Below, in pieces: positions 33,678-53,945 of a stretch of 64,000 nucleotides of DNA (the stretch's first letter is position 1; the number at the start of each line of letters is the position of its first letter). The position numbers and the translations under genes are program-made. Source of the stretch: Kalmusia sp. IMI 367209 (Eukaryota > Ascomycota > Dothideomycetes > Pleosporales > Didymosphaeriaceae). The notes under the pieces were generated by a model. It was not told where the DNA came from. It was given only the letters and a program-made list of their open reading frames with translations, and did not search any database. The stretch is taken from NCBI GenBank assembly GCA_027946365.1, contig JAPEUQ010000011.1:1364001-1428000 (forward strand), read 5' to 3'.

Positions 33678-34623
33678 ATGAACCAAGCATATCGCCTTCT
33701 GAGTGGGGATGAGGAGAGTGTCGCCGAGGAGAAGGAATTTGGTTTGAGCGAGCATGTTGGGTTGGCGATAAGTCGTCGACGCGCTCTCTTCATATGCGTA
33801 GCGACTCTCTTGATGTCTCTCTTCGTCAACGTCGTGCTTGTGATTGACAATGTTCGCCTGCGCCATTCATCCGGTGATCGCGGAAGAACCAAGTACAGTG
33901 AGTATAACCCGTATGACCTCCGTCCGGTCTCTAACAGCAGTAGGTGGCATCACATTTGACACTACGGTTCCCTTCCACTCTTATACAGAATATTGGAGTC
34001 CGAACATCAGTCACGAAGCTTCAGATGCCGCCTGGGATGCGATAGACACCAACCCAATGGCAGTGTCTCTTCATGACGACTTCGCGAAACAAGTCGGGCT
34101 CGGGTCATCTACGCGCTTTCCTTGGGACACGGAGCGTAGTGTCTATTATGTGAAAGGCTTTCACGACTTGCACTGTCTGGTATGTCTCTAGTGGCCATAA
34201 GGGACAGCTTGTTGCTTATTCCTTCCGTAGAAACTCATACGTAGAGCAATCGTCTCTAAGCATAATCAAGAGAACCACACATTCGCCCTCAGTCACCTAT
34301 TTCACTGCTTAGACGGGCTGCGACAAGACATCATGTGCACAGCCGACGACACACCCATGCCGGCACCAATTGCCCATCACGTTGGCGATGGCCAGCTTCG
34401 ACGATGCCGTGATTGGGGTAAGCTGAAGGCCTGGGCCACACGCCCCGATCAGCACGCTTGTCACGAGTTCGATGACTATCGCGAGGCTACCAATACACTC
34501 GAGCTATTCGCCCACTGCCCACAAAATTCGCCTTACCGTTCCATCATGGAGGCGTATTTTCAGTATCATGGTCACAAGGACCCTTACGAACTGAAGGATT
34601 CCGAAGACAGAGTTATTTTCTAG
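33678..34623 (+). CDS. UstYa-family (DUF3328) oxidase-like membrane protein
   Basis: A 283-residue protein from exons 33678-33897, 33941-34179 and 34231-34623. The first intron (GTGAGT...AACAGCAG) ends in a NAGNAG tandem acceptor, both choices keeping frame; the second is GTATGT...CCGTAG. A short cytosolic N-terminus is followed by one membrane segment (about 36-56) and a lumenal domain. The two HxxHC motifs that define the UstYa family are present: HDLHC (148-152), just before the second intron, and HLFHC (175-179), followed by LDGLRQDIMCTAD. UstYa proteins carry out oxidative cyclisation or related steps on ribosomally made peptides (ustiloxin, asperipin, phomopsin). A Kex2-type repeat precursor lies 592 bases downstream on the same strand, which is the expected partner. 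Start is the first ATG that places the membrane anchor near the N-terminus. Confidence 0.92.
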
Positions 34624-35215
34624 TCCGCAGATAGAGGCAGCTGCTCGTTGGTGCTTGGTGAGGAAGGCTGGGGGTTGGCAGCATTGCACATGTGAGATCG
34701 TGCCATGGTAAGGCAATGCGAGCTTCTGAGTGGTGCAAAGTTCTGTACTCAACTCATAGTTTCCGGTCACCGTTACAATCGGCATGGAGCGAACTACAAT
34801 GTTACAGGGTCCGAGAACTATCGGAAGTACGGCTGAGATCATTCACCTCTCATAGCCATCTCGGTGCCGAAATCTAGCTTTTTGGCCCCTCGAAATCTGG
34901 CTGATCCGGTGTACCGGTTTCAACGTAGCATGAGAGAGCGGTTGTTGTGCGACCAATGGTCATGTACCAACTGCCACGCATGGTCTTCAATGAGCTGGTG
35001 TGCTGTACAATCTATTGTTTGCGAATTGTGGATACCCTGTGGGGCCTCCAGCTGGCCTTGCTCTACAAGATTCATTTAACAAGTCAAGCTTTCGAGTCAG
35101 CTCACTCACAGGATATTCATTCACTCTCGCACGATTTTCAAGAAGTAGTAAGTCAACAAGATACAGAACTCTTACAAATCTTGATACATGAACAGTAATT
35201 GCAACGATTCACACA
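34624..35215. other. Spacer between UstYa-like gene and peptide precursor
   Basis: A 592-base stretch containing the 3' end of the UstYa-like gene and the promoter of the precursor gene. No clear TATA box. No gene seen. Confidence 0.5.
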
Positions 35216-35584
35216 ATGCGATACACCTTCGTCATCCTACCACTTGGAGCTATTGTTGCCAGTGGTCTCGCTGCCCCAATCGCGTTTGATAATGGTCCGG
35301 TATCCATCGGTCGTCGGGACGTTCCAGACTGGCTTCATGACTTGGTGCCTCCTCATCATGTCGACCGCGGCGTTCCATCTACCAACACCATTGCTATAGG
35401 ACCGAACTACGTGGAAAAGAAGAGTGTCCCTACTGTTGAGGCTGAATTCGAAGGCCCACATCACGTGGACAAAAGAGGAGTTCCTGGCGTGAAATTGGAA
35501 ATCATTGGACCGGATCACGTTGATCGCCGGCTCGCTCCCGCTATTGAGACGGAGCCGAAAGACCCTGTTGAGGTACGCGGCTAA
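35216..35584 (+). CDS. Secretory precursor with Kex2-type repeats (candidate RiPP/KEP precursor)
   Basis: A 122-residue protein with a signal peptide (MRYTFVILPLGAIVASGLAA) and then a tail built from five units of 17-18 residues. Unit starts are residues 35, 52, 70, 88 and 106. The shared pattern is xVP, a variable stretch of about seven residues, GPxHV, an acidic residue and then a basic pair. Basic cleavage sites are RR (33-34), a single R (51), KK (68-69), KR (86-87) and RR (104-105). The pre-repeat GPVSIGRR looks like half a unit. Fungal cyclic-peptide precursors (UstA type) and Kex2-processed repeat proteins have this layout: signal peptide, then cores divided by Kex2 sites. Here the middle of each unit varies and the flanks are conserved. 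No other domain; no cysteine after the signal peptide. The UstYa-like neighbour supports a modified-peptide role. Confidence 0.85.
   Translation: MRYTFVILPLGAIVASGLAAPIAFDNGPVSIGRRDVPDWLHDLVPPHHVDRGVPSTNTIAIGPNYVEKKSVPTVEAEFEGPHHVDKRGVPGVKLEIIGPDHVDRRLAPAIETEPKDPVEVRG
35318..35581 (+). repeat. Five degenerate 51-54-bp coding repeats
   Basis: The DNA encoding units 1-5 of the precursor. Units start at 35318, 35369, 35423, 35477 and 35531. The units are related at protein level (VP...GPxHVD+basic pair) but diverged at DNA level, indicating old duplications under selection on the flanks. Confidence 0.8.
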
Positions 35585-52107: not shown

Positions 52108-53945
52108 CTAGAAATAATGATTCACTAGCGGATCATAAGTTGCATTACCGTAAGCGCTGCCACCGTAATCGAGATAGCCCGCCACGTACGGCTGAGGGAC
52201 CCTTGCTGTGATTTCTTCTGCATTCCCAAATACCCACGCCGTCTGCATCCCCATGATCCTATGCGCGATGATATGGCAATGCATCATCCAAACCCCTGGC
52301 TCACTGACATTAACTCGCCATGCTCGCCATCCGGCTGTTGTGAAAGGCACGCCTTTCTCCGCATACCGATACTGCATCGTAGTATCCCTCAAGGCTGGCG
52401 TCCATCCTGTCTCAGAGTATAACCTTTCAAGCTTCGCGTTGTTAGCCGACGCATTGTACGTTCCATTTCCGGATCCGAGATCCCAGTAGTGGCGACCATG
52501 AGCGTGGAAGGGATGTATGTCCCAACCACCACTTGGTCCGTTGCTGTTCTCCCACACGATGTCAATGATCTCACCGAGCTTGGCAGGATATGCGAGGGTC
52601 TTCGGATCCCATCCATAGTTGCTGATCGCGGCTTCGTAATCGGGGTATCGCTGCTTGACCTCGCTTGTAGATCTCAGTCAAGTAGGGATAGCTGATGTTT
52701 GCCTCTTTCCAGATATTCCCATTCTGCGACCATTGTGTTGTGCCATTCACCTTTTGCTCTACTTTTATGACAATGGTACGGGTGACGGAGCTGGAAAGAG
52801 GGAAAGGGTTGGATGTGGTATCGAACGGAGTGAGCGTATACTCAAGCCAGTTTGTGACCTCTTTCGGAAGTGTAATGGGTTTTGTATCTGGCAGGATAAT
52901 GGACGTGGCGTTGGCGCTGTAGGGTGCACGCCCAGAAATACGATAGGACAGCAATGCAAAGCCAGAAACGTTGGCCGGTCGATCCCGGTTTTCGTATTGA
53001 ATCCAGAAGCTCGTGCTATTGAGCTGCTTCAGCTCTTTCGCTGATTTGGTTTTGAAAAGTACCGAAAAGCGTTGCCCAGGAGCGATCTGCAAATGATCCG
53101 TACTTGCCTTCTTAGTAAAAGAACCGTCGGCTTCTATAATAGTTAAATTATCGTGGCTTTCAATGCCCAGCGTAACCAACGAAATGACTTGTAGGCCAAT
53201 GAGTCTCAAGCGATATGTCCGATCCGGTTCGACTTCGATAACATGCGGCAGACAGCTTTTGTCGATAGCCTTGTCCGATTGCGCCTTTCCGCTTTGGCCA
53301 TTTAGTAGTATCGCATTTGTTTCTCCGCTCCAAACAAAAGGATTAGCAAGGAGTCCCGCTTCGATCGTATCATCGGTCTTATTGTAATAATCTTGTAAAT
53401 TCAAGATGTTATCTTCGTCGTATTCGTATGGCACTGGATCGCAAGAATTTACGATCAACGGTCCTTCCGCGGTGATCTCCTGGAAGCCAATGTGTGAATG
53501 ATAGAAATAGGTTCCTGCTTCTCCTTTCTCGGGGTGTATCTCGTAATCGAAGAAATGTTCGGGTCCGATAGGCCATTGGCTTGCTTGCGGGCTGCCATCA
53601 GAGTAGGGAGCTACTCTAGCGGAGAGGCCATGCCAATGCTGTAGGAGTTATGCAATGTCGCTCCCAATGGCTCAGAATACGTACAACAGTGAGGTTATGG
53701 TCGGGTATGTGGTTGTACACTCTGATCCAGGTCGTCTCCCCCTCCTTTAGATACAGTGTGGGTCCAGGGGATGAACCATTGAGTAGCACAGAGTATCTCG
53801 ACTGACAATCTATCGTAATATTCGCCGCTGTCGCATAAAGCACAGTGTGAGGGGACCACGAAGCATCGTGTTGTATCAAATCCGCTCCTATTGGCAAAGA
53901 CCAGAAAGCGAAGAAAATTGAAACGGCAGCCGCAAGCGACGGCAT
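52108..53945 (-). CDS. Multicopper oxidase (laccase/ascorbate-oxidase-like) with an apparent frameshift
   Basis: A secreted blue copper oxidase of about 596 residues if one indel is ignored. Exon 1 is 53945-53685 (signal peptide MPSLAAAVSIFFAFWSLPIG) and a 46-base intron (GTACGT...CTACAG) leads into HWHGLSARV. All four copper motifs are visible: HWHGL, FYHSHIG, HPFHAHGRHYW and MHCHIIAHRIMGM. The reading frame changes within a GGGG run (plus strand 52642-52645): upstream reads IYKRGQAAIP, downstream reads DYEAAISNYGWDPKT in the adjacent frame. Removal of one base restores continuity, and no intron of workable size fits there. So the gene is either recently broken, which would remove the two C-terminal copper motifs, or carries a base error. 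Family members oxidise phenols, ascorbate or metals. A TATATATA box lies 46 bases upstream. Confidence 0.85.

Follow-up and report, generated by a model that had tools for sequence, protein, structure and literature searches.

The question that this locus raises is whether a UstYa-family gene and the gene for a secreted repeat protein directly downstream of it act as one peptide-making unit, or whether they are neighbours with separate functions. The locus belongs to the genome of the plant-dwelling fungus cf. Kalmusia sp. IMI 367209 (Didymosphaeriaceae), which comprises 42.78 Mb in 30 contigs, and was analysed within a 64,000-nucleotide part of contig 3, hereafter the window. Its genes were annotated ab initio, aided by proteins and ESTs from related species; the text of the genome report (PMC10027605) does not contain the term RNA-seq.

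The locus and its neighbours

A sequence-only reading of this DNA had described a UstYa gene with an adjoining secreted repeat precursor on the same strand, and both genes are present as described, with a PF11807 match, HDLHC and HLFHC motifs and repeated units. The pair extends from the ATG of the UstYa gene at 33678 to the final base of the precursor stop codon at 35584. Its features are the following (positions in the window).

33678..34623, + strand: UstYa-family (PF11807/DUF3328) gene, 282 aa, exons 33678-33897, 33944-34179 and 34231-34623 (splice enumeration, Pfam, 94 homologues)
34162..34176, + strand: HDLHC codons, first HxxHC motif, predicted copper ligands (motif scan; role by analogy with CctR, PMC12435403)
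34294..34308, + strand: HLFHC codons, second HxxHC motif (sequence, motif scan)
35216..35584, + strand: secreted repeat precursor, 122 aa, single exon (repeat score, unit count, family alignment)
35216..35278, + strand: signal-peptide-like N-terminus, MRYTFVILPLGAIVASGLAAP (alignment, crude hydrophobicity rule)
35318..35365, + strand: unit 1, DVPDWLHDLVPPHHVD, after RR and followed by a single R
35369..35416, + strand: unit 2, GVPSTNTIAIGPNYVE, followed by KK
35423..35470, + strand: unit 3, SVPTVEAEFEGPHHVD, followed by KR
35477..35524, + strand: unit 4, GVPGVKLEIIGPDHVD, followed by RR
35531..35581, + strand: unit 5 (C-terminal), LAPAIETEPKDPVEVRG, with V at unit position 15 and the stop two residues on

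It had also been claimed that no P450, tyrosinase or methyltransferase accompanies the pair, and a partial check agrees with this, none being found when Pfam was run on 18 further proteins of the window (single-exon ORFs or one joined chain, taken from the 79 ORFs that reach 100 aa). The Pfam neighbours in the window are a GNAT protein, a fungal rhodopsin-domain protein, an amino-acid permease and, ca 22 kb away, an M28 peptidase, none of which is known to be a RiPP tailoring gene. A multicopper oxidase (laccase-like) ORF at 52574-53647 on the minus strand, ca 17 kb from the pair, is probably unrelated.

The UstYa-type enzyme

The product of the first gene matches Pfam PF11807 at 2.8e-23 (83.4 bits, with a cut-off of 25). 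The acceptor at 33944 was chosen because it yields TKYSGITFDT, which matches orthologues such as that of Karstenula (P0002); the homology queries were made with the 283-aa variant that uses the acceptor at 33941. The dikaritin-type RiPP class is defined by its DUF3328 enzyme and not by tyrosine (definition as cited in PMC12048977), and the enzyme of that class, a DUF3328 protein with two HxxHC motifs, is what the window gene encodes.

At E <= 1e-3 the window UstYa has 94 homologues (among 579 candidates), 77 of which carry two HxxHC motifs and 17 of which carry one, the latter being records of at most 237 aa each, most of which look cut. In one homologue (P0058), HLLQC replaces the second motif. 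Both motifs are found in all 48 full-length relatives (at least 270 aa, among P0002-P0061). By record name, P0002-P0061 span 32 named genera, which we take to be Pleosporales. In a tree rooted only at its midpoint, and in which the program flags long branches, the window gene groups with Bimuria, Karstenula and Paraphaeosphaeria (support 99/99), and Neocucurbitaria cava is in a second supported group (98/100), which has 19 rows. The closest Kalmusia paralogues, three genes with no more than 44% identity, fall outside, and one Aspergillus row falls inside. The gene looks, from these comparisons, to have been kept by vertical descent and, given the 32 named genera and the vertical-looking tree, looks unlike a sporadic cluster gene.

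An AF2 model of the Karstenula orthologue (71% identical to the window UstYa), made from 40 sequences, has a mean pLDDT of 84.7. The model places a helix at residues 35-65, followed by two neighbouring helices at 145-164 and 173-189 with one HxxHC motif on each; in other words, the predicted arrangement, motif helices behind one membrane helix, is that of a binuclear copper DUF3328 oxidase. In this regard it is like CctR, the cyclochlorotine hydroxylase, a DUF3328 membrane-anchored binuclear copper enzyme that has a single membrane helix and bears HxxHC(x)nHxxHC on a pair of helices (PMC12435403). The likeness is one of description and not of sequence and, unlike the role proposed for the window enzyme, CctR acts on a non-ribosomal peptide (PMC12435403). 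By this analogy we infer a copper site in the window UstYa and its position on the lumenal side; the analogy would also predict a dimer. A fold search of the PDB with the P0002 model gave no chain matching at E <= 0.001, and a sequence search of solved structures gave a single match at E 1.4.

The precursor and its units

The precursor contains five units of the form [KR]xxPx8Pxx[VI], ahead of which stand, in order, RR, a single R, KK, KR and RR, such that four of the separators are dibasic and the remaining one is a single R. The units are degenerate, with pairwise identities of 20-53%. The predicted signal peptide is based on a crude hydrophobicity rule and on conservation, M1, R2, L8, P9, L10, A12, A15, A19, A20 and P21 being invariant in all five aligned precursors (that of the window and the four relatives described below). 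The 122-aa single-exon form is favoured because each of the five proteins then stops two residues past its last unit. The NCBI model of the gene (P0001, Kalmusia N0V90_009958), at 146 aa, adds a 3' exon which is unsupported by any of the four relatives, and looks wrong.

A Kex2-repeat scorer, which looks for repeats separated by dibasic sites in ORFs with a signal-peptide-like start, was run on 30 sequences (L001-L029 and the window), and ranked the window precursor third (1.62) of the 43 ORFs passing its filters, after two (4.94 and 4.26) that are also repeat precursors at UstYa genes. Of the rows that follow, the fourth (0.92) reads the top-ranked ORF out of frame and the fifth (0.51) is a truncated copy of the one ranked second, the best independent row below the window precursor standing at 0.51. 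None of 100,000 shuffles reaches the five units of the window precursor, a figure which, like the other motif shuffles, is only descriptive because the motif was written after seeing the sequences. Across 33 sequences, with 3,103 ORFs that reach 50 aa, two or more units occur in the window precursor alone (seen three times in overlapping loci). A homologue search with the window precursor gave, among 46 candidates, a single hit at E <= 0.1, namely its own NCBI record, and a search of its own genome found only itself. Identity as a sexual alpha-pheromone was considered and rejected, as the PYG[L/M]P[I/V]G of Pleosporales pheromones (PMC6339444) is, by eye, absent from the window precursor.

The combination of a Kex2-repeat precursor with a DUF3328 gene is of a kind already known. 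Umemura 2020 reported 7,878 Kex2-repeat precursors (KEPs), of which 1,758 (22%) have a DUF3328 gene among the 15 closest genes, with the number of DUF3328 genes peaking at the position next to the precursor; 2,560 of the precursors had no homologues (PMC7329392). The window locus is like these KEP and DUF3328 loci in its signal-peptide repeat precursor, its basic separators and its adjoining DUF3328 gene, and unlike the KEPs in the low identity of its repeats, in its one single-R separator and in having relatives without most of the dibasic sites. The KEP criteria are at least three repeats of 8-100 aa between KR, KK, RK or RR and a repeat score above 0.6 (PMC7329392). Compared with these, the window precursor has three segments between four dibasic sites, with units 20-53% identical; the N. 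cava relative, which has no dibasic site, would fail them. The HHV in window units raised the matter of KEP types G-3 and G-8, which combine a di-histidine motif with DUF3328 (PMC7329392); membership is unlikely, HH being found in two of the five window units and none of the relatives' 12. The locus also fits the description of putative dikaritin clusters in Venturia inaequalis, in which a DUF3328 gene lies near the gene for a secreted precursor that has kexin sites and repeats, perfect or imperfect, of 10 residues or more (PMC9632046), again a likeness of description and not of sequence. No description of this particular family was found among the listed titles and abstract openings of open-licence papers, where absence is weak evidence.

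A second pair in a Neocucurbitaria cava gene model

The sole UstYa homologue among the 94 with any [KR]xxPx8Pxx[VI] unit is P0061 (N. cava N0V83_010096, 335 aa). In this record the UstYa ends after ...QCRDWNN and goes on as MRTTITLLPLFAFAAGIMAAP..., this downstream part being a secreted protein that contains ...AAPAMGETLVDPVHVIGRATPAVDKIIWDPVHVIN and is like the window precursor in its signal peptide, in the spacing of its units (of which it has three) and in its end. A search with the tail gave three free-standing homologues among 10 candidates, one of them from Neocucurbitaria sp. VM-36. Since these homologues show the tail to be a gene of its own, the fusion is most simply an accidental product of annotation, and the N. 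cava pair would therefore share both strand and order with that of Kalmusia, UstYa first and precursor second, to judge from a gene model and not from DNA. The sequence-only reading had held that it would fall if precursor homologues consistently stood without a UstYa gene nearby; in the sole readable context, that of the N. cava gene model, the opposite was found.

Kinship of the precursors is independently tested by profile, and not by the unit-motif shuffles. With a profile built from its relatives (N. cava, P0096, P0097 and P0098), the window protein scores 18.6 bits, first among 816 ORFs, and its mature part scores 14.5 bits, above 20,000 shuffles (best 11.5). BLASTP of the window precursor with that of N. 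cava gives 28.1 bits, E 7e-6 as a single comparison, at 28% identity. Moreover, shuffled mature parts match the observed scores in 0.02%, 0.96%, 0% and 0% of 5,000 trials for the four relatives. When P0097 is searched against the whole Kalmusia genome, there are two weak matches, the first at E 0.4 and the second, the window precursor, at E 7.2, a single relative being not sensitive enough as a query against a whole genome. All five precursors have a common signal-peptide pattern and VPD in the first unit, and the unit counts are five in Kalmusia and three in each of the four relatives, 17 in all, a longer middle stretch in the relatives that misfits the motif being left out of the counts.

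These results bear on the reading of the pair as chance neighbours, an unrelated UstYa gene beside a random short ORF. The 73 UstYa genes of the genome (a number from crude grouping) make some chance neighbours possible, and the internal repeats are weak; yet the chance of a given gene having a UstYa gene as its immediate neighbour is only ca 1% (73 among 13,561), and the profile test and the free-standing homologous proteins both stand against it. With the adjacent pair in the N. cava gene model, this reading is largely refuted and we regard it as very improbable indeed.

A precursor with a signal peptide adjoining the enzyme is also a mark of the dikaritins, and one with a signal-peptide-like N-terminus is found here at a distance of 592 bp and in the N. 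cava model likewise. Same-strand adjacency is thus found in two genomes of two families, in N. cava only through the gene model. Two cases make a small sample, and a few genes in a row do stay neighbours by chance. Adjacency across two families is worthy of note because gene order in Dothideomycetes is randomised (mesosynteny; PMC3219968). The precursor, as far as these sequences tell, is diverging fast while its adjacency has been seen twice. In homology searches the precursor family was found only in Kalmusia and Neocucurbitaria-like sequences, as against the widespread UstYa, and its absence elsewhere is weak evidence because word-based searches would miss a fast-diverging precursor. Searches of genome contigs gave no further fungal DNA; in viral contigs, one match was rejected as due to chance, its ORF lying among phage-like genes and lacking HxxHC, and a second search gave none.

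Proposed cleavage of the precursor

It is, on balance, probable that the two genes form a RiPP-like unit, in which a secreted precursor would be cut before each unit and the peptides oxidised by the adjoining UstYa. The precursor would enter the secretory route, where cleavage at the basic residue ahead of each unit would give peptides of ca 16 residues in the frame xxP-x8-P-xx-[V/I]; the UstYa, tethered to the secretory membrane such that both HxxHC helices lie on the lumenal side, would then oxidise the released peptides. Secretion, cleavage, the action of UstYa on the adjoining precursor and the kind of oxidation are all steps that we infer. The earlier proposal of a candidate RiPP system is upheld in part, being strengthened by the adjacency in a second family; its ustiloxin-like cyclisation is unsupported.

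The proposed Kex2 cutting fares differently in the two groups. The Kalmusia precursor has its four dibasic sites, in keeping with the proposal, but such sites are not conserved in the relatives, whose mature parts contain none (N. cava, P0096) or one (P0097, P0098), and Kex2 cutting is for this reason doubtful there. The single K or R ahead of the relatives' counted units is not independent evidence, because the motif demands it. The scarcity of dibasic sites in the relatives would also suit a small protein that is secreted and stays uncut, such as an effector or a surface protein, in which the repeat is merely internal and the basic residues are incidental. This we consider decidedly improbable, as four of the five Kalmusia units come after a classical dibasic site.

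The putative oxidation

Beyond the motif's fixed P3, P12 and V/I15, the 17 units conserve no aromatic residue. Tyrosine, typical of dikaritin cores, occurs in just one of the 17, the mature part of P0097 is devoid of F, W and Y, and that of P0098 has a single F, outside its units. Known UstYa crosslinks use the tyrosine ring (PMC7329392), and cyclisation through a tyrosine ether as in ustiloxin is unsupported for this locus, with no Tyr, Phe or Trp conserved in the units. Like asperipin-2a, ustiloxin and phomopsin, the window system pairs a UstYa-type enzyme with a Kex2-type precursor, and asperipin-2a likewise has a single UstY gene (PMC12048977, PMC7329392); unlike those dikaritins, with their Tyr-ring cyclised cores, it has no conserved aromatic in its units and no tailoring gene among the window ORFs scanned. 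Tyrosine is found in 65.6% of the repeats of KEPs with DUF3328 nearby, so that about one third are without it (PMC7329392). Because no aromatic residue is conserved, chemistry on an aliphatic or proline C-H would be likelier than a tyrosine ether, giving hydroxylation, desaturation or a non-tyrosine crosslink. CctR oxidises aliphatic C-H (PMC12435403).

The lack of a conserved tyrosine is also in keeping with a precursor that yields unmodified linear secreted peptides, for signalling or defence, the UstYa having another substrate and the pairing reflecting co-regulation or leftover gene order. Indeed, 6,120 of the 7,878 Kex2-repeat precursors have no DUF3328 gene among their 15 closest genes (PMC7329392). 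Moreover, UstYa relatives occur in 32 named genera and the precursor family in two groups only, such that the enzyme may have another substrate. Against this, same-strand adjacency is found in two families despite the randomised gene order of Dothideomycetes (PMC3219968), and the absence of the precursor elsewhere counts for little, as fast divergence defeats word-based searches. We thus hold linear peptides to be unlikely, and prefer the two-gene RiPP-like unit.

If the enzyme modifies these peptides, then UstYa-type oxidases act on aromatic-free ribosomal cores, which would widen the search for fungal RiPPs. An orphan pair also becomes a testable family: its anchor enzyme can be recognised in dozens of genera, and its hidden precursors can be sought by their spacing, P-x8-P-xx-V/I behind a basic residue. 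A bolder proposal, which we put forward tentatively and think unlikely, is that a UstYa copper oxidase has been kept vertically across Pleosporales in permanent pairing with a fast-evolving precursor, conserved in its core at two prolines and one V or I and at no aromatic residue. Cut at single basic residues and oxidised at aliphatic or proline positions, the peptides would then form a UstYa-dependent class of their own. They might serve the whole lineage as a signal, as opposed to being the toxin of a sporadic cluster and, were this true, such a class may escape identity-based KEP surveys.

Other UstYa neighbourhoods in Kalmusia

The genome has 102 exon-level PF11807 matches, corresponding to ca 73 genes by a crude grouping that may split genes. 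Umemura's 9,399 DUF3328 genes in 1,461 strains imply a mean of ca 6.4 per strain (PMC7329392), next to which the Kalmusia complement is a large expansion. The 5-kb stretches round the three closest UstYa paralogues (L030-L032) contain no ORF with two or more units. The 102 matches were grouped into 60 UstYa neighbourhoods, of which 20, UstYa neighbourhoods only, were read at 10 kb, and three of these 20, that of the window included, contain a repeat precursor. One of the other two (L011:6520-7089, in G000:C1) encodes a precursor whose five units read AAPIEF/AAPVEF...Y..LYK.AE.AGL, and has a UstYa gene (L011:4738-5262) at 1,258 bp. The other (L028:3342-3872, in G000:C6) encodes eight near-identical AVAVGPIIEEAGEGYES units, with one tyrosine each and KR, RKR or KKR between them, 773 bp from a UstYa gene (L028:4645-5356). 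Judged by its sequence, this last locus is a stronger dikaritin-type candidate than the window pair.
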